Origin: Dysidea avara
Taxonomy: Eukaryota; Porifera; Demospongiae; Dictyoceratida; Dysideidae
DNA length: 64,000 nucleotides
NCBI RefSeq assembly: GCF_963678975.1
Contig: NC_089278.1
Span: forward strand, 9,017,479 to 9,081,478
Direction of reading: 5' to 3'
This document shows, piece after piece, positions 12,001 to 63,999 of the stretch (within the stretch, counting starts at the first letter, position 1; every line of letters begins with the position of its first letter). The notes under the pieces were generated by a model. That model made no database searches. It had not been told where the DNA came from and saw only the letters and a program-made list of their open reading frames with translations. The translations under genes and the position numbers were made by a program.

Positions 12001-15000
12001 AATAAGAAAATTCTAGTATATCAAGTTAAATTTGACAAAAGTTTAATAAATGAACTCAACAAATTCTCTGGTGACATTTTTACACCTCTTTTCATTAGAG
12101 GTGAGACAGTTAAACATGAAAGTTTTTACAAAGGGAATAGAAGAACGTCTATTATACTACAATAATTTAGGAATAATTTATAGTGAAAAGAATTAATGAA
12201 TATTCTGGATTATTTGGAGTATAACTGGTGCAAAGTATAATTTGACTTCTACTAAAACAGTTCAAACCTAAAAACAGCTGAAAATTTAGATGCTCTAATA
12301 GAGCAGTCGCTTAAAGGCAGTCAACTTTTGAGCCCTTTTTTTTTTTGCTAATGTGCTTACGTATGTTTGGAATAATTAGCAGTAGATGAATTTTGAAAGA
12401 ATTTTCATTTTAAAAGTAATTGGAATTAACTCTCTCCTAAAAGGGAAGTTTCCTTTTTACATAAACAATGAATTCACCATGATCACCAAGAGCAATTTTA
12501 TGCACCAGATAGACATGCACCAACAAGTTAAAATTGATACATGATCTTGAAAATTAGTATCCACTGTTACCTAACTGTTAATCCAATGTAAATTTCCTTT
12601 CCAGTGACAGAATGAATTACCATCTTTAAATAATCCAAATATTGCCATTGTTGATGGAGTGATTCTTATCCAGAAGATGACAAAGATCTAGCCAAGATGT
12701 TTTTAATGACAGGCTTACAAGTAATTGCTCCATGCTAAAATGCTGGTGCTATTGCAACGATTTACCTTACACAGAACTGTGTGTTGTGTGGTACAGATGC
12801 ACAAGTGATGGAGACTTATACATACAAGTAGAAGGAAAAATGAAAAAATTTAAAGTTGGGTTACGATAAAAAAAGTAAAGAAACAAGGGAATTGCTAAAA
12901 AGTAGTGAAAGAAGATAAGTTGCCTATACATCTACAGATATACTAGTGGACATTTAATCCCTATACTTCATTCAGTCTACCATGACTGAATTAGGGATTA
13001 AATGTCCACTGCAGTATATAGGCAACCTCTCTTGTTCACTACTGTATTAGACTGAAGTATAGGGATTAAATGTAGGACTAACATAATTATGACTGGTGAA
13101 CTAGCGCATATACTGCATCAAAGGAAGAAGGGCACTTGGAAAACCATATACCTGGACACACGCCCCAACTATCAATTATGTAGCAAAAAGGGAGGTAGCC
13201 ATTACGATTCATTTTCAGCTATGCTTTTCACACAGCGTTGCAAACAAAGAACAGCGTGAGAAGTGTCTCAACTATCAATCATATTGCTATGGAAAATACC
13301 AGCGATAAGCTAACACAGCCACAGTTAAGCCGTATCACGTTATATAGCGTGAATTGACACCTTGCATTGTCAGTGAAGAGAACTGAGGACAAAGGCAAGC
13401 CCATGATGCATGTATTGTACATCTGCAAATTATGCTTGGCTGTCAGTCAGTCAGCGTAAAATTCTATTGAATAGAAAAAATGTAAAATGCTATAGAAATT
13501 TTGTTGGAAGAGTTTGGGGTTAGTCTAAAGTTTTGAGCTTGGCTGTGTCTAGCCAATGTCATGAAGGGAAATTGAGACTGGTTTTAGGGTGATATTTTGA
13601 ACTGGAAAAGCTCAATTCTGCATGATCCCTAATATATAGTACTATCATACTGTAAATAAATACATCGAAAATGACAACAGCGACAGTGCTGATGATTGTT
13701 AGGTTTATATCTTTGAATTAACTGTAATAGATATAAATACATGTATATGTACATACGTACATAGCCGTGATGTCTTTATACATAGCTGTACCCTACATCT
13801 CAATGTTAATAATTCACTTATTCACTTTATTTCATGCAATAACTATTTGCCAAATAAAGTTTCTTAGCATTTTAGAGGATTCTATATGGGTGTGAGAACA
13901 TAGAAATAGTGTTTGTTGCAATTCTCTGTCAATAAGAGGCTGATATGGAGAAATTTGCATCATATGGACTGCTATTTTCAAACTGCTAATTAACTAACAT
14001 GTAGGTATCTGTTTAAATGTAAGCATTGATCTCCATGCTCTAAGCTTTCTAATAATAATTATGTAGGCCCATAAATTTTGAACAGTTATCTTTGACATAG
14101 TAAACTGCATGCTACCAACTGGTACATGCAAAAGTGCTCTTGGATCTGGTCAGGGTGAAATCATAGTTGCCAATTGCTAATAGAGGATATGCACTGCCGA
14201 ATACATTCTAATGAACACGTGATTTTTTCATACGTCATGACGGTGAACAGAATGCGAATCGATTCATTACATGGATGGTAGATCAGTTACGAGCAATTCT
14301 TACTAAGTGACATATCCTTCTGCCTAAGTAGTACATCCGGCGAGAAGAAGCAGGCCCGTGGCTTTAGTGGCGAGTTCCAGTTCGAACATTCATTCACTGC
14401 CCATACCTTTATATGAGTTTTTCGTGGCCTTGTGGTAATCGTTCACGACAACAGAAAGCCTGCTTGTAGCTTAAAAGGCGAGTTATACTTCGAGCCGCAT
14501 TCACTACCCAGTACTTTTATATGGAATTTTCGTAAATCTTCGATAGTCGTTCACCGTCAACTTTTTTTGGAAGCACCGCACCGCTGATCATTTTTCGTTC
14601 GAATAATATAGCATGCATATCCTCTATTAACAAAGTTCCTTTTAAGAGAGAATACTTTATGCAAATTACAATTATTCTTTTAAACCTAGTATTAGCCAGT
14701 CTCCTAAAATTTATGCCTAACATAAACACACTAGCTAGGAGTTTCATAATAGTGACTGCTACATTAGCAATATGGACTCAAAGTTGACTGCTTTATTAGA
14801 GTATGCGACTGCTCTATTAGAGTAACTCAATTTTTCTGCTGTTTTTAGGCTTGAACTGTTTCAGTGAAAGCCAAACTTGTACTTTGCTCCAGTTATACAT
14901 AGGTCTCATTAAATTAACAATTCTTTTCGCTTAGTACTATTCTTGAGTTATTGCAGCATAATGGATGTTCTTCTATTCCGTTTGCATGATTAACTATCAC

Positions 15001-18000
15001 CTCTAATAAATAGAGATGTAAAAATGTCACCAGAGAATTTGTTGAGTTTATTAATGAACTTTTATGTCAAATTAAAATTGATATATCAGGAATTTCTTAC
15101 TTTATTGGCTACCATTTAGAAATATAAAAATGCTGACCTTGCAGGAATCTGTGCAGATCATAGGCGGCGGAAAGGGGGGGGCTAGGGGGCTGAAGCCCCC
15201 CCTCAGAATGATATCACACCGAAATTATCTTTCTTGGAGTGGGGCTGAAAACCGTGATAAAGATCAAGATACTCTAATAGAGCAGTCACTCTAATAAAGT
15301 AGTCAGTGTGTAGCGAGCTATGTAAGGATTTTTATGTAGTTTATCAGCTAAAAATGGTAGCTGGTGAGGTGGAAAGCTCTTGTCAGTTGGTTGTGACCTT
15401 TTTTTTTTTTTTTTTTTTGGTCTCACCTTACCAAACTATAGAAATAAGTCTGGGTCAGCCCAGCCCCCCCTCATATCAACTACTTGCTCCGCCGCTGGTG
15501 CAGATGTAAACATTGATTTTCAGATTCCTCATGCTCTAAGCTTTCCAAAAATGTATAGGTTTGTTAATCTCCATAAACTTTGAACAAAAATACATGGTGA
15601 ACCTGACTAATGTCCTAGTGATTAATTAATTAGAGTATGTTCTCCGTCACAATAGTTTTAAGGAGACCCAGGAACTCTTTTTAGGAAGGACGCATTAGAG
15701 GGAGTGAAACCAAGGATCACTTTGTGAACTTCATTTCTCTAGTACAGGGATATTACATTATCTTGTCTTCAAATTGGACCATACATGTCTAGCTAAGAAA
15801 TGACACAATTTTATAACTAACCTAAACATCTCAAGGTTTTTCAAATCAAGACACAAAGTAAACCATTGTGTAGCTTAAGAATACAGCACACCATATTATC
15901 ATGAAAATATTATTTTCATACATATGTACCACAGGTGTAGGAAGCATCTCATGGTTTGGGGGAGGGGGGGACAGATAAAGTTAAGGATAAGATGCAAGCT
16001 GAGCATTCCAAGCACGCTAAACTTAACTAGGGGGTCTAGGGACATGCCCCTGGAAAAATTTAACATAAAAAACTACTGCTCTGAGATTGAATTTCAGAGT
16101 ATTTTCAGTAACACATGGTTGAACCATACAGCAGTGTACACTTACTTCCGTAGCTTGCCTATATGTCGGTCTCCTAAATTAATTTTAGAGGTGCTTATCA
16201 CGATTGTCATTCTGAAGTGTTGTTGAGGGATTAGGTATGCAAGCAGATAATGCGGGAAGCCGCTAACAAGTTTGAGTAATCATCCAGCATTCCTCAGTTG
16301 GTGAATTGAACATCACAAATAGTCGTTACTTAAAGGCTTGTTTGCAAATGATGATATCGTGTGGATAACACTGACTGGTGTAGCCGGCCTGAGAGTATCA
16401 TTGGCATTCTTAGTGGCTGGGAGAAATGCTGCAAGCAATTAATTGTGTATCATCGTGAGAAATGCCAGCAGTTGTTTGAACCAAGACATGCTGGAAGTCT
16501 CTATTACTGAAAAGAAGAGGTCTCATACTTTACCATACTGCCCAACAAATAACATCATTGCATTCAAGCGAGCAATGAAATGTCTCTATTCCATTTCTAG
16601 TGGACAAGTCAGTAATGTTGTTTCGCTACTAGTACTGGTGCACCAGACTGTTATTCACCCTGAAAATGAACAACATATACTAGGGTTTGGTTTTTTTTGT
16701 TTTTTTTTCAAATTAGGTTTTTCTTTTTCACAGCTGGGCTGTTTTGGATTAGATAACATTTATTTTTGCATTCGTATAACTATGCTAGCTTTTGTCCATC
16801 TTTCTTTTAACAAAAGAACTAGATTTTAAGAGACATTTATGACTACTATAGTTTGAAATTTACATGTAGCTAGTTTGCTGAAAGGTGCACATACAAAGGG
16901 ATCTTGAAATGCGTTTGGTACATGCATATATGGTCAGTTTTCACGTTATAATATTTCCATTACATTAATGAAGGATTGTACCTTGTCAGTTACCTGAAGG
17001 AAATTCTGCATAAGTGATTTAGCCGGTAGGGATGATAACAAGTCACAGCAAAGCCAACTGCTCTATTAGAGTGTCTTGACAGTGTGATTCTTGTGTATAT
17101 GTTTGTTGTGTAGCCTGACTATTTATTAACCCTCGGGGTGCCGACAGTTACAGTAGTTGTCTTGTGTGGCTCTGAGTGAATTTGTCTGTTACCACTTCAA
17201 CTGCTGCATACTTTGTTTATAGGTTAAAAGCTAGGATGAGTTTAACAAATGAAATGTGTGGATTGTTCTGCAAACGCTTTATTCAAAAGTCATGGCAATA
17301 TTAGGTGTTCGTCTTGGCCTTCTTCGCTTCTTGATGAACTCTTGATGTACAAAAGTGATAGCAATAATACATCTAATGATACTACACTGATTCAGAAGAG
17401 GGATCAACAAACTCAACAAGCCAGGGATGAGACTTTGTAATCTTTAAGATTTCAAGATTCCCAATAAGATCTAAGCACTTTATTAAATGTTATCATCAGA
17501 TAGCCTTTTACCTTTTAACTGGGATTGAGCCCCTTATCTCTATAGCTCTTCACCTCTAATTTAACAACTTCTATACCTGGCTGTTTTGAAGGCCACAGCA
17601 TCTTTCACAGCTTTCTAACACTCATTTCTAGGATTTTTATTACTGGGACAAGCTTGAGTGAGCCCCACACTAAGTCATTTAGTGTTGGCACCCATTTACA
17701 AAAAGTACAGAATTAAAGGGCTAACCTCATAATATCATCCTTATATTAATAGAACAGTCACCGAGAAGTTAAAAAGTGCACAAAAATGTCAATAAGATTC
17801 AAACCAAGGACCTTCATACCTATACACCCAAACCCTTTATCACTCTGGTACTGCTGTCAGTTGATCATCTCATTTAATTTCTATCTTATACACAAAAGTT
17901 CTAGTATACTGCACCAAAATATAATTGAAGGGGCCAGAGGCAAAAGGCATTTGAAAGATTAGGTGACCACGTAATGGACGTTAAACAAAATTTTGGGACA

Positions 18001-21000
18001 TAATTGAATTTTTGTAATAGTTATATTGAGACTGCCATGAACTTTTAAACTCTGTTGTTTACTTAGTGGCAATATTATTCACCAAGCCATTCTATTTTTA
18101 GAAAATGGAAAATCTAAAATGGTACATGTCCCCTTTTTCTACTGACCCCTTCAATTTCATAGATCTATCAATGGAAATCTAGAACATTCTATGTGCGTTG
18201 TATTAGAAGAAGTGTTCAGGAAAAATGTGTGCTCTATTAGAGGGGAGCCTGTATTCCGTGGAATAGTGGAATAGCAGAATTACGGAATAAGCAAAAATCA
18301 CATTCTAAATATTTTGTTATTGTTTATAGCCTCTATGACATTTTAATATACATTCCTCACCTCGTAGAGAACACAATCACGATGGCACTGATCCTCGGGG
18401 CGATCTTTAATAGGATTATGTACAAAGATATTCACTCTAGAACAATCTAACTAAGCTAAACTACCAACAAATACACTTCACTACACAATCGCTAGAAAAC
18501 TAGAAGTTCTTTGTGCTATACTTACTCATACCAGCTGTCACACACGAGTAACTGCCCGAATTTATTAGAGTTATATACGAAGTGTTAGAGCCGAGGTTGG
18601 AGCTCTGATGTTGGGAGCTGAAAGTAGTATTATTCTCCAAATTTATTTGAAACACTTTAGGAAATGGTACCAGAGTTATAAGAAAGGTCAGATTATTCCA
18701 TGCATGCAGGGTAGCTACCTAGGGGGTGCCCGGGATTGTTTTGTCCTAAACTATTCGGCCAGTTAGCTAGCTAGCTGCTCGTGTGTGACAGCTGGTATGA
18801 GCAAGTATAGCCCAAAGAACTTCTAGTTTTCTAGCGATTATGTAGTGAAGTGTATTTAACAGTAGTTTAGAGTTAGATTGTTCTAGAGTGAATATCTTTG
18901 TACATATCCTATTTAAAGATCGCCCCGAGGATCGGTGCCATCGTGATTGTGTTCTCTACGAGGTGAAGAATGTATATTAAAATGTTATAGAGGCTATAAA
19001 CAATAACAAAATATTTAGAATATGATTTTCGCTTATTCCGTAATTCTGCTATTCCGCTATTCCGCGGAATACAGGCTCCCCTACAAAAAGTTTATAAATG
19101 AAGCACTATTGTGCAAAACCCTTGGAAAAGTTGAATAAAATATGGCTTTATTGAAGGGCTACCAATTGTTATGTACCATTTCTATAGTAGGTCATCTCAG
19201 GCACAACTATTACGTCAATGAGCACACAAACCAGGTACCAGGCATAAAATGCATTTTTTCCATAACAGAAACAACTCACAGTAGCTTTGATTCCAATTTG
19301 CACAAAACAAGCAGCAGCAAAATAGCTTAGTCTTTGTGTGACAACATGCAGACCTTAGTCCTGTTAGGCACTAGCCTTTTATGGCACACATGATGATGAA
19401 AGGGGTCTTAAGACAATATACAATATAAGTACAAGGGCCTAGACTCAGGGGTACCATGTACTGTTAGTGATCAGTACAGGAGCCCTGGCAAGACCTAAAC
19501 TAATTAAATTACAATAATTATAACTTGCAGCTTAGGTGATCCAATAAATCCCAGTCCAGGGAGGCTCTAGAATTAAATATTCTGTATGAGCAGGATACAG
19601 CAACGTGAGCAGCCTGCTTAAACAGGGATCTTATAATTTTCTTTGTCACTTGATAAGCATTAGCCACTTGGGCAATTGTGTCTGGCATAAAATGGCCTAA
19701 ATGACCAATCTCGATGAAGATCAACAGTTAACCCAGAAAGCTAAGGTCATGTTGTAAAGAGCCATATCGATCTTCCTTCTAACCTCTAGCAGCCAGTAGG
19801 TGTCGCTGGGTATTAGTGGGGATAGTCAGTTCAAATAAACAAGTGGAATTGTTAGAAACCAACAGGCCTGCTAAGGATGGAGCGAGGAAAGATTGGCTGG
19901 GATCCCAAAAATTATGTGCACCACCTTCATACCGCCTTTAAACATTATCCTAGAAACATCTTACGTGAGGAAAATCACCTTTATGGAATACTATTAGTCC
20001 ATCTAACATCAAATACAACATTAAAAACAAGAAAACACTTACAGGCGGCTAAATATAGAATTTTCAATAAACCACTGAAACTTGAATTTTTGTCTGCCTG
20101 CCTGCCAGCCTGCTTACCTGCCAGACCACAGTCGCCAGGCTGGAGGCCAAATGAAGTAGTGCACAGCCACCACTTTACGCCACAATAACAAACTCACCAG
20201 TGGGATGTACCTTTTGGGGTTCCGATGAGTGTGTGCGTTCTGTGCCTTGTCTTTCCTTTTATCTTCAATCAGGCTTGTCTTCGTTCTTCTTCATACAATG
20301 AAACCATACTGAGATGCTAATTTTCCCTATCAACACTTTCCTTCAGCAGCATATTTAGATGCCACTAACATATTTAAGTGTTTTATGTTCCGTAGATACC
20401 TGTAACTTCACGATAAGTTCAATACCATGACTATTAACGTGATTAATCATAACGATCAAGCACCAAGACCACACCTCTTTACAATCTATTTACTCGATCA
20501 CGATAACACACCCCATTATTATCAGCCTAGCTGTATTCATAATGGTTCAATGAAAATATGAAATAGTGATACACACCCTGGCAGCAGACATGGGGAAAAT
20601 ACATGAGTACTTATATTTTAGTACACTCAAGTACAAGTTTGAAAGTACTTGTATTTTATACTTAAATACTTTCTTAATTACCGTTACACTTAAGTATTTT
20701 GCCAGAGTACTTAAAGTAATTTTAAGTATTACAAACATTGTAGTTTGTACACAGTGAGCATCAATGAAAATAAATTTGATGAAGTATTGAAATTCTGTAG
20801 TACTTTATACAACCTTACTACGTATCATGTTGCTAGGAATTCTGGTGTAATAAAAACAATGCTGTGTTTAAATTGAGAAAAACCTGAAAGTACCTGCTAT
20901 CCTGAAATATTTTGCAATTCCTGAAGTTTTATCTGAAGGAGACTGTAAGGCAGCTAAATGCGACTACTGTAATGAGGGGTTTGTTGAATTGGTGGTAAGA

Positions 21001-24000
21001 AAATATCATTTATAAGTGCATGTATTCTTCTATGTCAGACAGTATTCCTTGTGAAGAAGACAATGTACTTTGCATGCTGAACTTGACGACTAAAAAACCA
21101 TACCTTGCATGTTTGTACCTCAAGCTTAAGTTATTATGCACGGCTGCATAAATTTTGCTATAGGAAAATGTACTGTACCTGTACTTTACCCAGTATGTAC
21201 CTGTACTTTACCCAGTATGTATCTGTACTTTACCCAGTATGTATCTGTACTTTACCCAGTATGTATCTGTACTTTACCCAGTATGTACCTGTACTTTACC
21301 CAGTATGTATCTGTACTTTACCCAGTATGTACCTGTACTTTACCCAGTATGTATCTGTACTTTACCCAGTATGTATCTGTACTTTACCCAGTATGTACCT
21401 GTACTTTACCCAGTATGTATCTGTACTTTACCCAGTATGTATCTGTACTTTACCCAGTATGTATCTGTACTTTACCCAGTACGTACCTGTACTTTACCCA
21501 GTATGTATCTGTACTTTACCCAGTATGTATCTGTACTTTACCAGTATGTACCTGTACTTTACCCAGTATGTACCTGTACTTTACCTAAAGTACTTCCATT
21601 GTACTTTACTTAAGTACTCTCATGATTTCAGTTGGAGTACTTGTACTTCACAAACTCAAAAGTATTTGTACTTTACTTAAGTGCACTTGGCCCCATGTCT
21701 GCCCCCTGGTAGCTAGATGAAGGCTGACTCAAGATACTGCAATCACCCTAATAGAAGTTGCACGTAAATAGCTGTATGCTATGACAAAAAAACAACAAAA
21801 AACTACTACCTTAAAATTATTAATTGTAGGGATCCAAGCGATAAAAAGTAGTGAAACAAGAGATGAATGATGGTATTACAGCATAGCTCAGTGGGAAAAT
21901 CCCTACATTGGCATTGAACAAAATGATCAAGCCAAGAAAGCCAGCACGCCACACCATGAGTATATTTACAGGAAGAAACAAAATGTGGTTTTCATGCATA
22001 CATAGCTCCATGCTCCCTTCTTGAATTGGAATCATTTTTATATTGCAAAGGCCCTCCACCTTCAGGACCTCACATACCAAGATTGCTTAACACAATCGTG
22101 AAGTATATGCCTTCAAAATTTGGCTTAATTTGTTTTTCTTCTTCGTTTAGTGGGCTTGGGGGGCTTAGATTCTTCTTTTCACACTTTACTAAAGCCATTA
22201 TAAAATGCAAATGTGTAGCTCAATTGTCTTCAGCTTGGTACACTTTATGAACACATTGCGGCACAATCACGTACCAAGTTTGGTACAAATCTGATTAATA
22301 TTCATAGAGCTATGGATGATTATTTGTATTAAAAAAGGCTGACTTGTTGTCAAGCCTACACGGTAAACCACTTATGGGAATAACTTAAAAATCGGTATGC
22401 ATATAGGTTAACCAACATAGCTCAAACCTTTTGTGGTTTAAAAGAAATTGCATTGACAGCTACAGAGTTACAAGGCAAAACCAAACAACTGTAAATCGCA
22501 GGGGGTTGAAATACTCTAATAGAACAGTCACTGTGGGGGTAAAAAAGGTGCATAAAAAGTGTTGAAAAACAAAGTTATTGACCAGCATTCAAACCAGGGA
22601 CCTCCATACTGAACACCCAAATCCTTAACCACTGAGCCGCTGCTATCATGGCTGATCACCCCATTTTATTTCTACTTTATAAATGAAAATTCTAGCTAAG
22701 ATCTACTCAATAGTCAAGTTCATAATTTCATAGATCTTTAGATCTACCAATGGAAAATCTAGATTGTTCTACAAAAATTATGAAAGTGCGGCCAAGTACA
22801 GTCAGTGTGGGCGGGCGACATACTCGTTTTACGGAACCAGAAAATACCGTTTTCATGCATCCGTTGCAGCCTCTTTACAGGTGAGACCCGGCCTTCGATA
22901 TGCAACAGCTAATAATGAGATGGAGCTTATGTAGATATTTATGCTTCAGGATTCTGGGGAGGTAAGCAAACATCTGAAGGAATATTTTAAATGTCAAAGT
23001 TAAGGCTATTGCGCCTCATATCATGGAATCCAAGTATCCTCACCATAGTTTATTGACGTTTTGAATGTGAGAAACAACGAAAGTATGAACAACGAAATTG
23101 AGATGGGTTCTTTTACTTCACTTGTATTTTCAACATTAAGGGGTGGTATGGGTCATGCTGCTCAGTGCTGTAGTTTACAGAAGACTTGCTCTCCTTGTCT
23201 CTCTTCAGAAGGAGTAGTGCCAGATGTCAGGGTGGTGGCAAGGGGTGCTGGTAACCCTGGGAATAATAATAAAAAATCTAAATAAAAAAGTTTTCATGTA
23301 TCCGTAGTGCTTGAATGGTATAATTCTGCAGTGGAAGCTTCCTCAGGGTAGGGCATCTGCCATTCCTAGTTTGAGTAGAATCTGCCCAGCTATTATTGGG
23401 GTATATGCACCTTCAGAATTCATCTTATTTCAGTTCTTCATATAGCCATGCAGTCTTCGATGATTCCTGTAGTAAAGGGGAAAAGTTAAAAGGAATTATC
23501 AAGGTCAACCATGGCTGGCTTTGGAACTTGCAACTACAAAAAGAAGTGATATCCGCACAAAAACAGCCAAGCTGTGAAAAAAGGTGTGGCCTTACACAGT
23601 ATTAACATCATTGCAGTCATTTGTTGGCTGCCACCTTTGATTTCACAACTTTTTTCACTGAATACTTTATATCAAAAAAAGGCAATCCTCCTATCCCATC
23701 CCCAAACCTCTCTGCACTTACATCAAGGCGGGCACAATCTTCAACATAAGCAGATCTGTAGTGAAATTGCTACAGTACAGCTATGAATATAAACAACACA
23801 GCTACACTCCCTATTTGCTAGTTCTATATACGGCTAATGGTCTGATGACAGAGAACTGAAGCAGTTCAAATACTCGAGATGAATGCTCCGAAGTAGACGA
23901 AGCAGACAGTACCATCACTTAAAGTACTGCCTTTGCTTGTATGTAAAAACGGCACTCTGGGGTGTTCCAAGACTAAATGGATCTGTCTTATACTGTAATA

Positions 24001-25081
24001 GTCTCTCAACACGCCCCCTAATAATATACATGTCGACTATCCTTTATGCATTAAATACAGAGTATGACTAAACACAGGAAGTAGTCATATTACAGGAAGT
24101 ACAGCACAGGAAGTAGGTAGGAAGTGGTAATATCAATAGCAAAATTCCATTTAAAGATCTAAAAAGGCCGTATTGGTATTGAAGCTCTATGGAGCCTTTG
24201 AAATATTACCTAACTACATGCCCAATATACACTAACTTGGCTATTTAGTCACTATGTTGGCAAAAACATACTTCAAAAATGGCTAAATCAATCCTTTCTT
24301 CATTGGTATATCTTGTAATGTTCAAAATGTTAGCAATCAAAATTTGTCCATTCAACCAGCTGAGGCAGCAAACTACACAGCCACAAAACTTAATGGTCCA
24401 TCTCTATTGCATATACATGGCAACACACACAACATATCAGCACAGTCTCTTTCATTTAACACATTGTGGCAGACCCGATTGCTCTAATAGAGTGTTTGTA
24501 TCTTCTATTAGATTAAGATTACTGACTAGTGTACCCAAATCTGTGTGTACATTGAAAGTTGGTTGTAGTGTGACTTTTGATATTGTATCATAACACTACA
24601 GCATAACTATACATGAATACCACACGATCCACAACTTACTGGATCGTAGTAGTATCCAGTTGTTTTGTGGCGATACAACACAACCTTCTCATAATCTGGA
24701 TCTTTAATGGTATCATCTTCTTCATCTTTTGTCAAATCCACCACTTCTCCATCCTCTATAAGACATTAGCAGTATTATTTTGTTATCATTTTACATAAAC
24801 ACTTTTAGCAGCAAGTTTTGCTATTTTCAATATCTAAAGGACTATGTTAGCTGCAGCGTACCATGTTGCAGCTTTAAAAACTACAAGTTATTTTGTAAGA
24901 TACTAGCTACATACACTAGTGTGACATGTGTTCACAACGAACTACCTTTATAGCTGTTAATTTGAACCTTCAATTCTGTTACCTCCTCTTGTAACAGACG
25001 CAGCCTCTTACGTGCTAATTCCACCTTAACTTCTTGTAGCGATTCTTGCACATCACGTGACTCACTAGGTTCCTCGTCCAT
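1..25081 (-). CDS. AGGF1: AGGF1-like protein (OCRE + FHA), 3' end beyond left edge
   Basis: Exons on the minus strand: 24946-25081, 24640-24755, 6805-6910, 1632-1798, 1099-1204, 914-1043, 409-460, 256-357, and from 209 leftward. All have GT-AG borders and matching phases. The start is the ATG at 25081. The first exon is coiled-coil-like (LARKRLRLLQEEVTELKVQI). Tyrosine-rich OCRE repeats follow (HKTTGYYYDP joined to NTGQFHTL across the 17.7 kb intron; later GFVYDADSGLYYD and ESQLYYNPQFGAYFYYD). Then comes an FHA domain with VHAEITFD and DLGSRNGTHLNE, and a CEQCEPG motif typical of AGGF1. The G-patch that ends family members should lie outside the window. Known AGGF1 proteins are nuclear or secreted factors linked to splicing-type complexes; the role here is inferred from the family. 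The odd point is the two very long introns in an otherwise compact region. Confidence 0.85.
1799..6804. other. AGGF1 intron, 5.0 kb
   Basis: This AT-rich stretch lies between two AGGF1 exons. I see no gene, RNA or clear terminal repeat in it. A possible extra exon near 5,690-5,752 has splice-like edges but breaks the reading frame and was rejected. Confidence 0.6.
7914..8190 (-). mobile_element. LINE 3'-end fragment
   Basis: On the minus strand the segment encodes HFVKTIPAWNQLPEETV, which resembles the conserved tail of CR1/L2-type reverse transcriptase ORFs. It ends in a TAATAATAA-like simple-repeat tail at 7,914-7,930. Only the last tens of codons are present and other stop codons interrupt it, so it is a 5'-truncated dead copy. 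The clade is uncertain. Confidence 0.55.
12901..13047. repeat. Fold-back hairpin repeat
   Basis: The two halves pair imperfectly over about 65 bp with a very short loop near 12,990. The core arm is GTGGACATTTAATCCCTA and its complement TAGGGATTAAATGTCCAC; outer parts also pair (GTTGCCTATA with TATAGGCAAC). A third copy of the block GTATAGGGATTAAATGT follows at about 13,056. Confidence 0.6.
14173..14632. mobile_element. MITE-like element with short terminal inverted repeats
   Basis: The ends read TAATAGAGGATATGCA on the left and its reverse complement on the right, about 460 bp apart. Inside are two imperfect direct copies of a roughly 95-bp block (about 14,360-14,455 and 14,460-14,555), each with GGCGAGTT, CATTCACT and CTTTTATATG in the same order. 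No transposase is encoded. I could not fix a target-site duplication. Confidence 0.5.
14785..14825. repeat. Paired palindromic motif
   Basis: Two copies of the dispersed motif in tandem: GACTGCTTTATTAGAGTA then GACTGCTCTATTAGAGTA, starting about 22 bp apart. See the finding on this family. Confidence 0.7.
15159..15497. mobile_element. Non-autonomous hAT-like insertion
   Basis: A 339-bp insert is flanked by the 8-bp direct repeat GTGCAGAT (15,151-15,158 and 15,498-15,505). Its ends are imperfect inverted repeats, CATAGGCGGCGGA and TCCGCCGCTG. The inverted paralogous arm at about 11,955-11,975 has the same sequence without the insert and with a single GTGCAAAT, that is, an empty site. An 8-bp duplication is typical of hAT transposons. 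A poly-T run and a pair of the dispersed palindromic motif (15,268-15,306) lie inside. There is no coding capacity. Confidence 0.75.
16285..16510 (+). pseudogene. Copied fragment of the 33.8 kb pseudokinase gene
   Basis: The segment closely matches 33,700-33,925: shared runs include ATCGTGTGGATAACACTGAC and GAAATGCTGCAAGCAA. It covers the short first intron, the membrane-segment exon and the start of the juxtamembrane part. The intron is still present, although its acceptor has become AAG in place of CAG, so the copy arose from DNA and not from processed RNA. Later changes interrupt the reading frame after the membrane segment. It sits inside the large AGGF1 intron, in the same orientation as the parent gene. 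Confidence 0.75.
17744..18245 (-). repeat. Dispersed tRNA-like repeat, diverged copy
   Basis: On the minus strand the segment at about 17,790-17,860 reads like a pol III tRNA-derived head, with a B-box-like GGTTTGAATC and a preceding A-box-like region. The outer parts match the copies at 22,510-22,800 and 48,820-49,090 (for example TAGATCTATCAATGG and ACATTCTATGTGCG). It is the most diverged copy of the three. Confidence 0.5.
18241..19082. mobile_element. MITE-like element with about 305-bp terminal inverted repeats
   Basis: The left arm 18,241 to about 18,545 and the right arm about 18,777 to 19,082 are near-perfect inverted copies. The outer ends are AGGGGAGCCTGTATTCC and complement; inner blocks include AAGATCGCCCCGAGGATC and ACCAGCTGTCACACACGAG. 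About 230 bp separate the arms. The high arm similarity suggests recent insertion or gene conversion. I found no transposase ORF and no convincing target-site duplication. Confidence 0.75.
20576..21719. mobile_element. Element with hAT-like ends around a minisatellite
   Basis: The ends share GCAGACATGGGG in inverted orientation (about 20,584 and 21,705). Both flanks of the central tandem array carry diverged AAGTACTTGTACTTTACTTAAGT-type sequence, the kind of AGTACTTTA-rich ends seen in some animal hAT elements. I could not find an 8-bp duplication, so the family assignment is tentative. Confidence 0.4.
21170..21585 (+). repeat. 22-bp minisatellite, about 19 copies
   Basis: The unit is GTACCTGTACTTTACCCAG followed by TAT, alternating with a version having GTATCTG. 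Copies are nearly identical over 415 bp. Because 22 is not a multiple of three, all forward frames read as repeated open frames; these apparent proteins are artefacts of the repeat. Confidence 0.95.
21925..22800. repeat. Composite dispersed repeat with tRNA-like segment
   Basis: The first part (about 21,925-22,450) matches 48,425-48,780 and, inverted, 50,600-51,260; shared blocks include GAATTGGAATCATTTTT, GGTAAACCACTTATGGG and CAAACCTTTTGTGGTTTAAA. The second part (22,510-22,800) on the minus strand contains a tRNA-like head: A-box-like GGCTCAGTGGTTAAGG and B-box-like GGTTTGAATGC about 40 bp apart. It also holds one copy of the dispersed palindromic motif at 22,510-22,530. Confidence 0.6.
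22990..23285 (+). mobile_element. Decayed retroelement-like fragment
   Basis: The reading frame around 23,100-23,215 contains EIEMGSFTSLVFSTLRGGMG, which resembles a segment seen near the end of reverse transcriptase ORFs of retroelements in basal animals. Only a short broken piece remains. The family is unresolved and the copy looks old. Confidence 0.4.
24479..24516. repeat. Paired palindromic motif, diverged
   Basis: GCTCTAATAGAGTGTTTGTA is followed by TCTTCTATTAGATT, a second weaker copy. It lies 120 bp downstream of AGGF1 exon 2, within the intron. Confidence 0.5.
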
Positions 25082-25891: not shown

Positions 25892-28081
25892 CTACGATGA
25901 AGTTACTGGTTCTACTAACAATTCAGTGGATATCACTTCCATATTGGTACCTTCAATAGGTACTTCCTCCATTTCCAATACCTCAGTAGACACTATCTCT
26001 TCTGTAGCTCGTTCAGGAACAATGGTCAACTGCTCGGTAGGTGCTGTAGAAGTCAGTGCAGACTCCTGGACTACTGTAACCTCTTGTTGGCAACTTGTAG
26101 CAGGTAGCATATCAGTAGTGACTGGCAGAACATCAGTGGTTGTGGTTACATCAACATCCACAGTCTGAATATCCTCCTGCGACACTGTAGTTGTCTCATA
26201 AACTACCATGGACTCATCAGTCACAATCTCTTCTTCTAGTGCAATCTGCTCAGAGCTGAGTAATACTTCTGGTTGCGAGTACGATAGCTGAGAGCCTTGC
26301 GGTGTAACAGTTGAGGTTGCCCCAATGTTAGCCAGTTGAGCAGCTTGCTGACTGCTACCCATCTGTTGCTGAGCAGCAAGCTGTAATGACTGTTGTAAGC
26401 TGGCTATCTGCATGGCTTGCTGCAGGTTGGCTAGTTGGGTCTCCTTGCTGACGGAAGGATCGGTACTTAATGCATCTGCTAAGTGCTGCAAGGCCTGAGC
26501 TATTTCCAGACCAGCTTCGTGATCTTCTGCCGAAAGGGACGCCAAAGCCGTTGCAGCTTCTTGAGTTATTGGCGAAAGGCTTGTGTTAGCAACCAATTGT
26601 AGCTGCTGCTGAGCTTGTGATACTAGTGAAGTGGCATTGGCTGTGGTGGAAGGAATTGGCTGGCTGGATACTATTGGTGTAGTTAGGGTTGATGTTGTAA
26701 CCACTAGATTTCTAGCTGGTAATACAAGGTTATCACCATTCTCCATATCTTCTTCTTGATCAGAGTCTAACTCTTCAACACCATCAGCACTTCCACTGGC
26801 TTCGCCAGAAGTACGTTTCTGTAGTGATATGTGATGCTTCTTCTTCCAACTACAAGAACAACAATATGTTAACTAATTACGGCTTATATATAAACTCACT
26901 GTGACAGCCAAGCCTTTGAGGCACGGAAGTCAGGGTTAGTACTCATCTCAAGTGCCTTCTCTCTTACTTGTCGATTGCTGATCACTTCCTCATGGTTCCA
27001 TCTCTCAATCAACCACTGCAATAGGAATTCATCAAAATCTTCATCATCCTCGCCAACTAATTCTGCTTCTTCTTCTTCAACCTTCTTCTTCTTCTTCTTG
27101 GTCTTTCTACGAGGAGAAGTGAAGATAGTTGGTGAATAGAAAGTGCCACTACTGGAAGCTTCCCCTTCAGGAAGGATTTTCAATTTAAGTTCCAATTCCT
27201 TCTTTTCATGGGGATCGTCAAAAGTGTGATCACGCAAATTAATGTTGTAACGCTTTTGCCACTTTACAAACCATCCAAGAGAAGCTTTAAAGTTTGGACT
27301 GCCATTAAGTTCCCTTGCTTTCTCCCTAATCTGATTTGTATTTAGAGTAATGCCTTGTTCCCAAGATTCCTTCACCCACTCAAATAATGCTTTGTCCAAC
27401 TGAGGATTGCTTACTTTCCTACCCTGGCCTGGTCGACGAAATATTGCTGAGCCAGACTCATTTGCTACTGTGGAAATGATATCTAACTCTTCCTTCCAAC
27501 GCTGCAAGCAACGTCGAGACACATTTAACTCCAACGCAGCCTGGCTAGCATTCTCTAATTCTTGACACCTTCTCACTGCCTCCAATTTAAATCCAGCAGT
27601 ATATGATCTCTTTCGTCGTTTGGCTACTTCATCTTCTTCAGATTCCTGGTACCCAGTTCTCTTCTTCCAGTTGATATACCAGTTTATGGAGGCCTTAAAG
27701 TTAGGATCACATTGTTGGCCAACCTCATAAGCTTTTTGTCGAATTGTGTTCGGTGTAATGGGCTGTTTGCTCTTTCTCTTATGCTCCATTACCCATTGGA
27801 ACACCTCCTGGTCGATGTCCGAATGCTTCCCCATTCGGGTACCAAGCTCGGATGCGCTACAAAAAACGCAGACATCATGTATTATAATCAAATCACAAAG
27901 GATTGCTTCTCTACTATATCAAAATGGCGGTCAAGCTTCCAAACAGCGCCCTTCAAAGTGCACTCTTATTGGATAATTTATGAGCTTTTATTAGAACAAT
28001 AAAACTAGGCCACATTTAATAAGAAACGATCCTATACAAGTCATAAATATCCCTTCAACCAGCTCACCTTTCGTCCGACAT
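25892..28081 (-). CDS. Three CENP-B-type HTH domains plus Brinker-like domain; putative transcription factor
   Basis: Three exons (28068-28081, 26900-27856, 25892-26849) give 642 residues with matching phases; the start MSDES is split by the first intron. Domains in order: CENP-B/Tc5-type HTH at about 14-75, a Brinker-like DNA-binding domain at about 85-128 (RSYTAGFKLEAVRRCQEL), a second CENP-B-type HTH at 150-215 and a third at 275-338. Each HTH repeat ends in an F-x-A-S-x-x-W-x-x-x-W-K/Q-K pattern; the third is completed across the last intron, which supports the splice. A lysine-rich, then acidic linker precedes repeat three. The C-terminal 300 residues are Gln/Ala-rich, then Thr/Val/Glu-rich, like an activation region. 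No DDE transposase domain is present, so it looks like a host gene built from transposase-type DNA-binding modules. The function is inferred. Confidence 0.8.
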
Positions 28082-29350: not shown

Positions 29351-32300
29351 ATGGCTGCACCTTTCATAATCCTTCACGCCGGTCAGCTCGTATAAGAGCC
29401 TGCGTATAGCTACATTTACTGTTTTACGGGTTTACAGGAGCTGGTTATCATCCAGAATCTACAACAAGTCTCCTGACTAGTTTGTGTGAGGAATCTTGCT
29501 CGCAGGTAGCAGACACTGATGGTAGTTGTGTGTAGGAAAATAAAGCCGTTCTTACAGGTACTGAGAGTGTTTAAGGAGGGAGGTAGCAGCCAGGAAGCAG
29601 TATCACGTGCAATATCCATCTTGGAGGTATAGTCTGTAATATGGTGATAGTACAGTGCTATGTCACAGGACTCCCCACACACCAACTGTGGTTATGGTTC
29701 AAACCTGACATTACTTGGTGGGGTAGAGTGTGATGCCAGTATCATGTGTGGACAATCAGGATATTATGGTAGTGTAGGAGCTGTGACAGGTAGATTGCTG
29801 CAGAGGAGGTTGGTCATGTGTCACAACTTTGTAACATCTTCCAATAAAAACACCCAATAATCAGGTCTTGATATTCACAGTGAAAAAAGCAAGCCTTACA
29901 TTATCCACACTTATGATTGTGACTTAAATAAAGGATTTCAATATTGTGATGATGTGTGACCAACATCCTCTGACTCTTCTGAAGTTTATCATTCCTGTTT
30001 GGCAGGTGTGAAAAATCCCATCAACATAGCATCAGGATTATTGTCTCAGCAGTGTAGTGGACCATTGTCTCTTGGTAGACTTCCCCCAATGTAACTTAAC
30101 CTGATGTCATTGTAGTGATTGCATTCACTTGTCACTTCCAGGATGCTAGTGGGGGGAGGAGCTAACATTTATGCAGCACAAAACAACATACAGGTATTGC
30201 CAGCTGATGATTTGATCTCAGGTGAGCACAGTGACATAATCAAAACATGCTATAATGCAGTACAGATAGAGCTCGTGCTGTTTATGTTGATCACATGAAA
30301 AGATTAGAAAAAGCTAATAAAATTGAAGCCATCTCTACAGCAAAGAAAGCGCGTCTTGACCAACCGGTAAATGCACTTTGATCATTATTGTGTTTGTACT
30401 TGTTTGATGAAAGAGTGCAGTGGCACAAGATACAGTGGGAGCTATTGCTATGGATGAGCGAGGTGTATTGTGTGCTGGAGTGTCTAGTGGAGGATTATCT
30501 TTGAAATTTCCTGGAAGAGTAGGACATGTAAGGGCTGTGATGGTTGGACTAACCAATGAAATGCGGTTCTTCTGTTAGGCAGCCATGTATGGCTGTGGCT
30601 GCTGGGCACAGAATAGCAGCGTTGAGGACATTCCAGGGTTTGCTTGTAGCATATCAGGTTTGTGCGTGCGTGCGTGCGTGCATGTGTGTGTATGTGCAGC
30701 TTGACCTGCTAAACACATTTCAGTCATTTAAATATCCTTCTTCCAGCTGTAAAGCAATATGTAAAGTAGCCCTTCCTGGTACCCTTCTTGAAAGTAGCCC
30801 AATGCTTCTACTCTAGCTTGGCTCATTTAGCAATAGTCAAATTCAGCAGCAAAATGAAAGAATCAGCCATACCACAGCTTCCTTATTTTTGCCAGCGTTC
30901 TTCAGCTCAATGAAGAAAATATTTAGTGTGATGTCAAACAGACACTGTCTATAAAGTCACCACGTGGTCTGAGATCCACACATGTCTGCTCTTGACACCT
31001 TTACTGTTACCACTGTTCATCTGGTTGGCTGAAATACTTACTATTTCTCTCTCGAGAAAAAAATCACTTTTCTTTTTTTAAACTGTTTTCTCAGGGAAAC
31101 TCAACGTGTACATACTATAGTGCAGAAATCCTGCACTTGTAGGTGGATCTGGACTTACAGCACTAGATTGACACCTGGGAATCATTCACACTGTATTGGA
31201 ATACAGAAAGCCAATGGGCAAATAGAAGGCAACAGTTTATAAATGCACTTTACAGTTACAAAACTATACACTGTGAAGAAATTGGGGCAAATAAGTTGTG
31301 CCGGGTTCAAGATTCTCTAATAGAGCAATCACTACTCTAATATGTCATTATATCAATTGATAACTTTTTTTGTGAATTATGCCTTTTGATTTAGTACACT
31401 TTATCTAGATAGGCTAGGTTAATATAATGCTTTGCAAAGCATGCACTTTGTTTGATAACTATCGAATTCAAACCTAGAAGGCCTAATTTTACAGAAGATA
31501 TCCAACTAGAGTCTTAGAATGTATATCTCCTTCATTCATCCAGCTACACCAACCAAAGTTATGCAAATGAATGTAACTTGTGCGCTAGAGTTCCATTATT
31601 CTGATCAAGTACTTTGATGTTTGGCTAATGCTAATGCAAGTATTTCGATCATAATGCTTGATCTTTGTATTACTTCTAAAGTGCAGATAGCTATGTGCTA
31701 ATCAAGGTGCTAATGCACTTTTAAGCTGTCTACAATTTGCTGACATTCCTCGATTGATTGATTGGTTGTCTCTAGAACTGATACGGGATTTGTATTTTAC
31801 CACGCCCTTCCTTTCTAATATGATGGGGTGGGGTGGCACCAGACTATGTGCTATCTTTATTGCATCAGTTTCTCCTTTTACGTGCTGCTCCCCTGCTAAA
31901 TGCTTCTGGAAAGGTTAAACATTATACACCCTGTTTTCTTTTGACACTTTTGTAAAGTTGGGCTGGGTAAAGAGCCAGTGTTTACCAATAATATTAATCA
32001 CATTCATTGTGTATGTTGCAGCAAACTTTCTCCTGTAAAGATGGACAATAGTACTAGGTCAGATATATGTAATCATTGCTAGCATAATCAGTGCATTAAC
32101 AGCATCTGTGAAATATGAACACTGGTAGCAATCAATTTGCAGAAGAGATGACAGTCCTTGAATGGCAGGAAGAGTTAGGTAGATAGTGGAGGCAGCAGCT
32201 GTAACAGTTGATCAGTTGCTGTATGTCAGGAATTTTGACAAAAGAAAATTTGTTTGATGAATGGAATAAATTTATCAACTTTTAATTCCTCAAACCTTGA

Positions 32301-33538
32301 TTGGCACCTTCAAAGATTTTAAGTTTGTGATTTATTAATTGATGAAGTGAGGACTTGTCACCTTTTCCTTTCATCAAAATTTCCTGCTGTATGGTAATGC
32401 AGATCCTGCAAAGAGAGGAGGATCTGAAATTTAGTTAAGAATTGCAGAAATCTGAGGTTGTATGCAATGTAAATGCAGCACTTTACTGTGATTGAACAAT
32501 AGCCGAATGCTCTATTAGGTTATTACTGTTTATCTTGAGTGATGATCATAGTGGCTAATACTGGACTGGGACTGCAACAAATTAATGTCAAATTTAGTAT
32601 TCGGATATTTGGGTGTCTTAACGAATGAATACTGGTAACATTTAGAATTTAACCACATGCTGCCACATAATTGGCCACTTTTTCTCTGAAATTAATGGTG
32701 GTTGTCTTTATAATCTCATAGTACAACAGGCCATCTTGGAAAAATATAGGTGATAACAAACCATTTCAGCTGTAAACTTCACTAGTAAAATGGTAAATTT
32801 AGTATCCAGATAATATCTTAAGTAATGAATGAATATCTGAACGAACTGAATATTTGTTGTAGCCCTAGTTCCTATGCCTCTTGTCGAAATCTCGAGGACC
32901 ATGTAAAATGTCATGGTCCATGGGGGACCACTTACAACAGTTGTAATTTGCATGGGTTAGAGGACTGGTTATAACAGTTAACTTGCTACCATGCATAGAC
33001 CACTCGTAAATTGTGATAGTCTTTGGCCATGTATTATCAGTTTTGTGTGGGAAGATGGAATGTGACCATTAAAGTTGTTCTCATTATCATAGGTGCAGGG
33101 GAGCATATTACACGAACTCTCTTGGCCAAAGAATGTTGTTCTTATTATCAGTCCAGGTAAGTATTTAGCTAGTGTACTGATTATTATTATTATACAGTTG
33201 ATATGACAGACCTGATTCACCCCTCAAGTTACATGATTTCTTACAAGAACACTTTCTCTCCCATCCATTTCTACATGATATAACAGAGAAGAATTGTGGT
33301 CTGATAGTTGCACAGAGTTTTACAGGTGGTATAGTGTACAGTTCATCCTGCTATCATTTGGTATTTGTCCATAGACTGCTGCGAGTTGTCATGGGGGCAT
33401 ACGACAAGTAGTTTTTGTGTAGCATACCAAGGAAGGGACAATGTCAAGCCACAAGTCATATTTTCTAGATTAGAATCTACTGTTACATCAGGAAGAACTG
33501 TTCAAATTGGTGCTGTATGTTTATCTAACAAGAATTAA
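29351..33538 (+). CDS. TASP1: Taspase 1 (threonine aspartase)
   Basis: Twelve exons: 29351-29381, 29438-29505, 29558-29626, 29669-29789, 30006-30090, 30142-30221, 30266-30366, 30414-30527, 30579-30657, 33099-33156, 33210-33325, 33375-33538. Phases agree and the product is 361 residues (human 420). Family motifs are clear: FIILHAGAGYHPES at the N-terminus, ECDASIMCGQSG, GVKNPINIA, then QDTVGAIA, where Thr192 is the autocleavage and catalytic threonine. After it come FPGRVGHAAMYGCGCWA, GEHITRTLLAKEC and HTTSSFCVAYQG. Taspase is an Ntn-hydrolase that cleaves after Asp in targets such as MLL/Trithorax and TFIIA. The last three exons lie 2.4 kb downstream behind a repeat-bearing intron. The first donor (GTCAGC) is weak but restores the HAGAGYH motif. 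Confidence 0.93.
30658..33098. other. TASP1 intron, 2.4 kb
   Basis: It starts with a TGCG/TGTG microsatellite (about 30,660-30,700). It holds the dispersed palindromic motif at 31,312-31,345 (two copies) and a weak one at 32,506-32,520. I see no coding sequence. Confidence 0.6.
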
Positions 33539-33539
33539 T

Positions 33540-33600: not shown

Positions 33601-33705
33601 CTCCTTTCTCCACCTTCTCAAACTAATAAATAAAATGTTTGTGGTGAAATCACGTGCTCGATCACGGGGTGAACCCGCGATCAGTTGGGAGTGGCTGATG
33701 TCGCA

Positions 33706-47964: not shown

Positions 47965-52668
<4,704 letters not shown>

Positions 52669-62407: not shown

Positions 62408-62730
62408 CTGCATACAAACAACTAGTATTACATTCAACCAATTGTGTACCATCTGTTCATAAATCTCTTCCACACTGAAACTGATAGCAATTTCAAAATT
62501 GACATTAACTCGTGTTAACGATACATATATATATGCTCAGTCACAGCAAAGTTGTTATGGAAGTAGGCTATAGGCATTGATATAAGCCACTCTGGGGGTT
62601 ATTTTGTGGAAGCCTATGGTCTGAGCAATTACAAGATATAAACTAACACGTTATTCTTGCCTATCTAGTACCCACATAATAACTGCTGAAATCTGATTAA
62701 TTCAAGAGTACATATAATAAGGCTCTGTAG

Positions 62731-63003
62731 CAGGGGCATACCCAGGGGGGTTTCAGGAAACCCCTTTGAAATTGAAACTTCAGGTTTCCAGAATCTGGAA
62801 TCTATCATAGAACAGGACATATTTTAAACTTTTATCTTAGTTTCTCACATGATAGCAACACTTGTAGCACTGTTCTGAATTATGGTTTTGGTGAAAAGAT
62901 CGAGATACTCTAATAAAGTAGTCAGGCTATATAAATTACTCTAATATAACAGTCACTTAGCTGTAGTGGAAACTCCTTTTCAAAATTCCTGTGTACACCC
63001 CTG
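62731..63003. mobile_element. hAT-like non-autonomous element
   Basis: The ends are CAGGGGCATACCCAGG and, at the right, CCTGTGTACACCCCTG; the form CAGGGG(C/T)GTA..CCAGG is common to animal hAT ends. About 273 bp. The flanks show no exact 8-bp duplication. It carries a pair of the palindromic motif at 62,905-62,957. Confidence 0.5.
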
Positions 63004-63399: not shown

Positions 63400-63600
63400 A
63401 CAAGCAACTGATGACAACATTGACTCGTATAAATTTTCCTTTTCCCCCTCTGTGATTAAACTTTGGAACCCCCTCCTCCCCTACTTACCCATCTCTGGAT
63501 AACTTTTGTAATAACTTAAGTATTTATATCTGTGCGTTATAATCATTTGTGATTTCTGCACAGTAATGATTTCTGCACAGTAATAATAAACCTCGATAGT
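63400..63600 (+). mobile_element. LINE 3'-end fragment
   Basis: The forward frame at about 63,418-63,500 reads SFSPSVIKLWNPLLPYL, a reverse transcriptase C-terminal motif like that of the 25.3 kb fragment. It ends near a TAATAATAA tail with a short duplication of GATTTCTGCACAGTAAT. Only the last codons survive. Confidence 0.5.
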
Positions 63601-63952
63601 GGGAGCTGGGGTCAAGTCATGTCATAGATGGTATATTCTCCGTACTGGTGCGGAGAATATAGATCTATGGTCGTGTAGGGTGGTTGTTAAAAAAATCAGT
63701 AACTGTACCTTTGCACACATCATAGATCCTTCACACACGAAGCATGATGATATTAGAGGAGTCTGGGGACATGCTGGCACTGTGCTTTGAGATTGAATCT
63801 GAGAGCATGGATGTGTACATACTTTCTATCATTATGGCAATGACTATCATTGAGATACTGTGCGGGTAGATACATCAGTAAATGAAGACACCATTCATGC
63901 ATTTGTATGGATAATATAGAATGTGTTTCATAGCAAAACCAGGTTCTGCTAA

Positions 63953-63999
63953 ATGTTCTATTAGAGTAGTTAGGTGACTGTTCTATTAGAGTATCTCAT
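63953..63999. repeat. Paired palindromic motif
   Basis: GTTCTATTAGAGTAGTTAGG is followed by GACTGTTCTATTAGAGTATC: two copies of the dispersed motif in the same orientation at the very edge of the window. Confidence 0.6.

Follow-up and report, generated by a model that had tools for sequence, protein, structure and literature searches.

A short directional repeat with a predicted hairpin, dispersed among several kinds of carrier in 64 kb of most likely nuclear animal DNA

The accessible part of PMC2800124 describes the RHE of sponge mitochondrial DNA as short hairpin units in many dispersed copies, often as tandem double hairpins, which spread singly or inside longer duplicated blocks. For yeast mitochondria, the accessible part of PMC4478555 describes GC clusters such as GC42, a 42-nt palindromic mobile unit, and reports that the clusters merge and shuffle. 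In placozoans, a motif of Mutator terminal repeats has been linked to chromatin-loop anchors, according to the accessible part of PMC12221973. Here, we describe a repeat, TGACTGCTCTATTAGAGTATCTTGAT, that spans about 26 bp, is partly self-complementary and directional, and recurs in a single window (the whole stretch of DNA analyzed, 64 kb in length). This window encodes nuclear-type genes, namely a tyrosine-kinase-like protein, Pus10, and ADP-dependent glucokinase, and judging by these proteins its DNA is most likely nuclear and of animal origin; its overall appearance would suit a demosponge.

All 17 places at which a first-pass annotation had reported the motif hold it, with an offset of at most 3 bp and 24 copies in total, the one at 18227 being weak. 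On both strands of the window, the 18-mer GACTGCTCTATTAGAGTA occurs in 5 exact copies and in 11 with at most 1 mismatch, and the count reaches 19 and 22 at up to 3 and 4 mismatches. At up to 2 mismatches, the tolerance that the annotation had proposed for a comparison with random sequence, there are 15 copies inside the window against a mean of 0 in Markov sequences of order 1 to 3 (20 each); the simulated means at up to 3 and 4 mismatches are 0 to 0.15 and 0.65 to 0.8. When exact 10- to 14-base words, unselected beforehand, were ranked under a low-complexity filter, the most widely dispersed were pieces of the motif, which came top at every length. A profile made from 21 of the 24 copies (18227, 24498, and 31333 left out) gives 20 of its own building copies 20 to 39 bits and the remaining one, at 17742, 13 bits; in 64 kb of simulated sequence, about 2.5 sites exceed 8 bits. 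Among the copies outside the profile set, 24498 scores 7.5 bits, while 18227 and 31333 score below 5 bits. Both 24498 and 31333 are degenerate second members of pairs, with 5 mismatches each, and at 18227 there are 4 mismatches surrounding an intact 11-bp core. The motif is therefore real and far above chance, and chance or base composition as its source is ruled out by the Markov simulation, the word ranking, and the profile scan. Independent origin by mutation is not credible, because of the 20 to 39 bits scored against the simulated background.

Seven of the 17 loci are paired. They lie at 14786..14824 (+ strand, start-to-start spacing 21 bp), 15270..15304 (−, 17 bp), 24477..24515 (+, 21 bp), 31313..31350 (−, 20 bp), 50416..50460 (+, 27 bp, with a possible decayed pair after it at 50560/50577), 62906..62954 (−, 31 bp), and 63951..63993 at the window end (+, 25 bp). 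The members are co-oriented in all seven, at a spacing of 17 to 31 bp, which agrees with the earlier description of pairs usually in the same orientation and about 20 to 30 bp apart. The annotation had also noted the absence of the motif from 33–48 kb; this is correct, and 0–12.2 kb and 52–62.9 kb also lack it. Uniform placement gives smaller gaps than the three largest seen here (p 0.01).

The carriers are of several kinds. A 3.2 kb fold-back element (11952..15158) has arms at 11952–12340 and 14769–15158 that are 76% identical, and the motif sits near the inner end of both, inverted: in the left arm at 12291..12308 (−, 1 mismatch, with a shrunken partner beside it at about 12309–12322) and in the right arm as the 14786 pair. 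The right arm also holds a MITE (15159..15497) with the ends CATAGGCGGCGG and CCGCCGCTG, which carries the 15270 pair. It is flanked by an exact 8-bp target duplication, GTGCAGAT, and similarity to the fold-back arm restarts at 15495; we take it to be of hAT type from the length of the duplication and from the end sequence, which is typical of hAT elements. The 62906 pair lies within a stretch whose ends look hAT-like by eye (CAGGGG...CCCCTG), with no clear target duplication. A repeat family that includes a stretch judged tRNA-like by eye, family X, carries the motif at 22512..22529 (−) and, as an exact copy, at 48819..48836 (−), and a degenerate copy at 17742..17759 (−) marks the edge of the family. 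Two further copies follow such sequence, one at 49199..49216 (+, 1 mismatch) about 110 bp past the end of an X copy and an exact one at 51297..51314 (+) 0 to 30 bp past the end of an X-like module. No carrier was recognized at 17056..17073 (+, single, followed by TCTTGA) or at 51934..51951 (−, exact), and the single motif at 32505..32522 (+) is followed 8 bp on by the start of TATCTTGA. The weak copy at 18227..18244 (+) adjoins the inverted duplication 18241–19082; the first-pass annotation had placed the motif inside that duplication, which it merely abuts.

Since 17742, 22512, and 48819 share one family X position and 12291 and 14786 share one fold-back arm position, the 17 loci reduce to about 14 contexts, and to fewer if 50416 and 51297 (neighbors of X pieces) and 18227 are merged. 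That unrelated carriers share one short motif, often paired, is supported. Despite this collapse of 5 of the 17 loci, a fixed site in one repeat family, the contrary outcome that the annotation had named, is ruled out within the window, as carriers and flanks differ. Edges of repeat blocks fall close to the motif in 8 of 44 cases against a null of 1.1 (p 0.001), these 8 representing about 4 events.

Flank identity was compared over 101 locus pairs from 15 of the 17 loci, leaving out 18227 and, as it reaches the end of the window, 63951. On the downstream side, the 10 bp directly after the 18-mer are far more alike than in shuffles (z 8.2), and identity falls to background beyond them. The 20 bp on the upstream side show a slight excess (z 2.7 and 2.3), and the single strongly conserved position there is the base adjoining the motif. 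The flanks of 17056, 24477, 31313, 32505, 51934, and 62906 matched no other motif-locus flank at E ≤ 0.01, and neither did that of 63951 (upstream flank only); one match, at E 0.045, joins the flanks of 17056 and 22512. Within this one 64 kb window, no site lacking just the motif could be shown. Copying of a discrete unit, as opposed to evolution in place, is supported by the sequence, and the unit appears to have been copied, singly or as same-direction pairs, into at least 10 unrelated places within the window. Of the annotation's guesses (a self-spreading mini-repeat, a protein-binding site, or a structured RNA signal), none is proved; what stands is this copying of a discrete unit.

Exact single copies are predicted to fold into a 6-bp stem with a 3-nt AUU loop, which is weak (−3.8 kcal/mol). 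Across 16 of the 17 loci (18227 left out), the motif strand is predicted to fold better than its complement at 13, and likewise in 7 of 7 pairs; the consensus contains a G-T wobble, and therefore this strand preference is partly a single fact counted repeatedly. The predicted stem is absent at 17742 and 32505, and at 12291 the complement folds better. When five pairs were refolded, four were predicted to form a single long hairpin interrupted by an internal mismatch or loop, and three reached z of about −3.3 to −3.5 against shuffles; the 50416 pair was slightly better than shuffles and the 62906 pair no better. Changes in the stem preserve pairing in 18 of 30 cases against 37% expected under a strand-symmetric null (p 0.007), and unique variants in 16 of 28 against 36% (p 0.012), both p-values being too small because the copies are related. 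The named stem has 89.5% of its cells paired versus 27 to 57% for slid versions, as would be expected anyway for a structure derived from the consensus. Covariation was not seen, since 317 of 500 shuffles paired at least as well as the real copies and 185 of 500 matched their covariation score. A covarying structured RNA is not supported, and the excess of pair-keeping changes is one-sided. For the structured RNA signal suggested earlier, the strand asymmetry lends weak support to a modeled RNA hairpin, and covariation lends none.

We tentatively propose, at somewhat less than even confidence, that the motif is a nuclear hairpin mini-repeat of about 26 bp, which was copied in one piece to unrelated sites, including transposable elements, and that its form would make it the nuclear equivalent of the mitochondrial hairpin-forming elements. 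The points that count for this proposal are the discrete unit, the many unrelated contexts, the co-oriented and variably spaced pairs, and the better folding of the motif strand. The unit itself would be the moving entity, and may travel as a hairpin, single-stranded or of RNA, that is copied into new sites through repair, gene conversion, or reverse transcription. Pairs could have formed through slippage, and carriers that amplified later, such as the fold-back arms and family X, would have carried the motif along.

The main rival, which we regard as somewhat unlikely, is that the motif is a binding site carried by several transposon families and read either by a transposase or by a DNA-binding protein of the host, for example a zinc-finger protein. 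A directional, information-rich motif across several TE-like carriers would fit such a site, as would the common orientation within all seven pairs, and the placozoan Mutator terminal-repeat motif offers a precedent in the accessible part of PMC12221973. A protein with Tc5-type HTH domains is encoded at 26896–27918, its tie to the motif being co-occurrence in the window. However, the motif does not clearly exceed its carriers in conservation: its 17/18 identity is matched or beaten in 56 of 392 fold-back arm windows and 59 of 413 family X windows, counts that include the motif window itself. Moreover, the spacing of 17 to 31 bp keeps no constant helical phase, and a mechanism would still be needed for copying about 26 bp into unrelated carriers.

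Another possibility is that the copies are terminal or subterminal repeats of one non-autonomous DNA transposon family with diverged interiors, arranged like those of IR/DR elements, in which doubled repeats lie inverted at the two ends. Locus orientation alternates above expectation (14 runs in 17 loci, p 0.02), the motif is inverted between the fold-back arms, and inverted copies border 17742–18244 and 48819–49216. However, the alternation loses significance (p 0.10) once the weak 18227 site is removed, and the motif lies in the interior of both the MITE and the 62906 carrier, with no inverted partner found inside either. When up to 500 bp around the 17 loci were scanned for 14-bp inverted ends and 8-bp target duplications (only this duplication length), the motif was at no terminus. 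The scan gave candidates at 3 of the 17 loci (scores 18, 17, and 17), and 4 of 40 random positions scored at least 17 (best 21), so that by itself it proves little; only the MITE is convincing, because of its exact duplication and the arm resuming right behind it. Transposon termini were thus rejected, with the reservation that the scan yields false positives, the alternation being merely suggestive. We consider this explanation quite improbable, and the internal position in the MITE agrees with the earlier remark that ordinary transposon ends do not explain the motif. Still less probable is an origin from a tRNA-derived SINE, or from its LINE partner, with very short truncated remnants of a 3′ tail or shared domain left: a tRNA-like stretch, recognized by eye, precedes the motif at 22512, 48819, and 17742 only, and the similarity of 17742 with family X terminates inside the motif, but family X similarity also reaches upstream of the tRNA-like part, seven loci have no detectable upstream sharing with other loci, and in the window ARAGORN found no tRNA and Rfam, at gathering score, no known RNA family, though diverged SINEs may escape both.

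Relatives were also sought elsewhere. The single-motif pattern gave 0 matches in viral contigs and 22 in prokaryotic genome contigs, the latter with one copy each at up to 4 mismatches and, by rough estimate, no more than chance. The pair pattern gave 8 matches in viral contigs, 3 of them with copies at 4 mismatches and none with a copy at 3 or fewer. A tRNA-like 20-mer pattern had 0 matches, and searching with the ADP-glucokinase piece at the protein level found no relative. No nuclear animal counterpart appeared among the literature titles listed. Of the 9 papers listed as containing the motif core strings, none concerns sponges to judge by its title, and one deals with plant microsatellite markers.

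A wider reading, which we judge unlikely, is that this is a nuclear self-spreading mini-element of about 26 bp (45 to 60 bp when doubled) in an early-branching animal, hopping into and riding other transposable elements, perhaps in tens of thousands of copies if the window is typical. It would then be a parasite of parasites, and few mobile units of animal nuclei would be smaller. Short non-coding hairpin repeats that multiply have been described from organelles, and a nuclear one inside transposons would lead one to ask what machinery copies a unit this small.

With the general features of hAT MITE families as the standard of comparison, one carrier (15159–15497) is alike in its hAT-type ends and exact 8-bp target duplication, whereas the motif is internal, not at the ends, and is also present elsewhere without such ends. 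The placozoan Mutator motif, as far as the accessible text describes it, is likewise a short, transposon-spread motif possibly used by the host; it lies in the terminal repeats of one family, while ours is internal to several carriers and is known from sequence only. The GC clusters differ in being GC-rich and mitochondrial, with presence/absence variation and putative target duplications reported in the accessible part of PMC4478555. The likeness to the RHE, as far as the accessible text describes them, lies in the dispersed copies (17 loci in about 14 contexts, 7 of the 17 paired) and in the predicted hairpin with its 6-bp stem and 3-nt loop, which here is weak and missing from some copies. 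The comparison is one of form, not sequence: the RHE are mitochondrial, whereas our motif lies among nuclear-type genes, has a weak stem, and forms a directional unit.

The partly self-complementary 18-mer GACTGCTCTATTAGAGTA occurs on the two strands of the window (38% G+C, no N) in 5 exact copies, with 11 copies at ≤1 mismatch, 15 at ≤2, 19 at ≤3 and 22 at ≤4. It was recovered at all 17 of the 17 loci reported in the first-pass annotation, within 3 bp of the positions listed there, and is indeed commoner than in simulated sequence: simulations at three Markov orders, with 20 sequences per order, averaged 0 copies at ≤2 mismatches, 0 to 0.15 at ≤3 (compared with the 19 copies observed) and 0.65 to 0.8 at ≤4. 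Later analyses took 24 copies, two of which (24498 and 31333, the degenerate second members of pairs) carry 5 mismatches. Nor is the motif an arbitrary choice of word. When exact words of 10 to 14 bases in the window are counted without bias, low complexity having been removed, pieces of the motif rank first at every length; the top 10-mer, itself a motif piece, lies at 13 separate loci, compared with 6 for the best unrelated one.

Conservation was assessed in an alignment of 15 loci anchored on the last copy, with the 18-mer numbered +1 to +18. Positions 0 to +19, +21 and +24 are conserved above the 99.9% null, and positions -1, +20, +25, +26, +28 and four scattered ones above the 95% null only. 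Flank identity was compared with shuffles as the mean of 101 locus pairs, the 4 homologous ones having been set aside. Downstream, it is far higher than in shuffles within 10 bp (z 8.2); upstream, it is slightly raised within 20 bp (z 2.7 and 2.3). The rest of the flanks is at background. Therefore, the ~26 bp unit is close to TGACTGCTCTATTAGAGTATCTTGAT. A motif profile made from 21 copies, leaving out 24498, 31333 and the weak copy at 18227, scores 20 of these 21 at 20 to 39 bits and 17742 at 13 bits; among the copies left out, 24498 scores 7.5 bits and the other two <5 bits. Simulated sequence contains about 2.5 sites >8 bits per 64 kb. Copies of ≥20 bits cannot be separate mutational origins at so many places, and the unit was copied.

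The carriers, found by self-BLAST and nhmmer, are unrelated, as had been proposed: a fold-back element, a hAT-type MITE, repeat family X, a stretch with hAT-like ends, and loci without a recognised carrier. In the fold-back element, whose inverted arms (11952-12340 and 14769-15158) are 76% identical, the motif lies near the inner end of each arm. The hAT-type MITE (15159-15497) is inserted in the right arm; the exact target duplication GTGCAGAT flanks it, and a motif pair occupies its middle. In the MITE-end scan, candidates scoring ≥17 also arose at 4/40 random positions, and 15159-15497 is considered an inserted MITE because of its exact duplication and the resumption of arm similarity at 15495. 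For this insertion, the left arm (11860-12340) represents the unoccupied state: similarity between the arms ends at 15158 before it resumes. Family X, which includes a stretch that is tRNA-like by eye, carries the motif at one homologous position in 22512 and 48819; at 17742 the motif is degenerate and lies at the edge of similarity. X-like modules lie near 50416 and 51297; at 49199, the motif comes about 110 bp after an X copy terminates. In two X-like modules, TCTTGATA repeats occupy corresponding places (48398-48420 and 51262-51296). The motif follows these repeats in the 51 kb module and is absent at the corresponding place in its 48 kb relative, which may be an empty site or just the end of X and is not counted as evidence. 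The hAT-like ends around 62906 were read by eye, and a clear target duplication is absent. The flanks of 17056, 24477, 31313, 32505, 51934, 62906 and 63951 (upstream side only for the last) match no other motif locus's flank at E ≤0.01; that of 17056 has one match at E 0.045. In 32505-32538, TTACTGTT-TATCTTGA comes after the motif and by eye reads like a second unit with its palindrome deleted.

Pairs occupy 7 of the 17 loci, with start-to-start spacings of 21, 17, 21, 20, 27, 31 and 25 bp, and the shared orientation described for them extends to all seven. A further decayed pair may be present at 50560 and 50577 (spacing 17 bp; 13.0 and 6.6 bits on the motif profile). The first-pass annotation correctly found no motif in 33-48 kb, but 0-12.2 and 52-62.9 kb are equally empty. 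The three largest motif-free gaps, summed, exceed uniform placement (p 0.01). Repeat-block edges fall ≤35 bp from a motif in 8 of 44 cases, compared with 1.1 under a rotation null (p 0.001), although these eight edges represent about four events and some arise from the motif belonging to the aligned block.

For exact single copies, the predicted fold is a 6-bp stem capped by an AUU loop (-3.8 kcal/mol). Compared with its complement, the motif strand is predicted to fold better at 13 of the 16 loci tested and in 7/7 pairs; both strands give zero at 17742 and 32505, and the complement is better at 12291. Five refolded pairs gave z values of -3.3 (14786), -3.5 (15270), -3.4 (63951), -1.4 (50416) and +0.4 (62906). 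Of the changed stem cells, 18/30 still hold a standard pair, where a strand-symmetric null predicts 37% (p 0.007); for unique variants, the count is 16/28 changed cells and the expectation 36% (p 0.012). Both tests assume independence of the copies, which does not hold. C-to-T changes amount to 14/72 at three C positions and G-to-A changes to 7/96 at four G positions, with copies again treated as independent. Covariation was absent in the formal pair count, the observed pairing being reached by 317/500 shuffles and the covariation score by 185/500; a structural role for the motif is possible, though covariation lends it no support. Motif-window identity is 17/18 between the fold-back arms (as good or better in 56/392 windows) and 17/18 between X copies 22512 and 48819 (matched or beaten by 59/413). 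Comparisons of these two X copies with 17742, in which the motif windows run past the alignment end, gave 14/18 and 13/18, with 67/163 and 46/146 windows as good. The motif thus does not appear clearly more conserved than its carriers.

Pfam matches were obtained for five of the ten reading frames scanned (26896, 34003, 38226, 52589 and 59476; Tc5-type HTH, tyrosine-kinase-like, GST C-terminal, Pus10 and ADP-dependent glucokinase) and none for the other five; from these matches, we infer that the window is nuclear and most likely animal. By its general look, it may be demosponge DNA. The minus-strand frame 26896-27918 encodes a protein, possibly a domesticated transposase, in which three stretches match the DNA-binding domain of Tc5 transposase, a domain of CENP-B type. 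A segment at 16246-16507 is duplicated with 77% identity at 33660-33931, just upstream of the tyrosine-kinase-like frame at 34003, and is a possible remnant of a kinase-gene duplicate. The window also contains a large inverted duplication or MITE at 18241-19082 (arm complementarity 91 to 94%; its ends read GGGAGCCTGTATTCCG by eye), a tandem array at 21174-21585 (22-bp unit, 18.8 copies, 96% matches) and a short element at 49371-49901 with 44-bp inverted ends (TACCATACGGAGGGAAACTTTG), 80% complementary, which looks like a MITE.

Rfam and ARAGORN detected no known RNA family and no tRNA in the window. Single-motif scans returned 0 matches in viral contigs and 22 in prokaryotic genomes, each a lone copy; the pair-pattern scan of viral contigs gave 8 matches, none with a copy at ≤3 mismatches. 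Among the titles listed by literature searches that took in few subscription journals, none showed a nuclear animal counterpart of the unit. The unit may already lie inside an unnamed Dfam or Repbase library entry.

We tentatively propose that the unit is a nuclear hairpin mini-repeat, similar in form to the repetitive hairpin-forming elements (RHE) of mitochondria. A discrete, directional, self-complementary unit has been copied to unrelated places, often doubled, and later amplification of larger elements would have carried it along. The main rival, a putative binding site that transposons have spread and that the host perhaps uses, seems rather unlikely to us; its precedent is the terminal repeats of placozoan Mutator elements, which occur at loop anchors according to PMC12221973. 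Improbable, too, is that the motif represents transposon ends. Inverted ends are expected to give the alternating locus orientation observed here (14 runs, p 0.02); however, p becomes 0.10 once the weak 18227 site is removed. A SINE or LINE tail is very doubtful, and the remaining probability belongs to readings not thought of. The hairpin mini-repeat would differ from RHE in being nuclear, RHE being mitochondrial, so that class membership fails on location. Its likeness to the RHE of sponge mitochondria, as described in PMC2800124, lies in a discrete unit that is dispersed, often doubled, self-complementary and taken along in larger blocks, and the yeast mitochondrial GC clusters described in PMC4478555 share this form.
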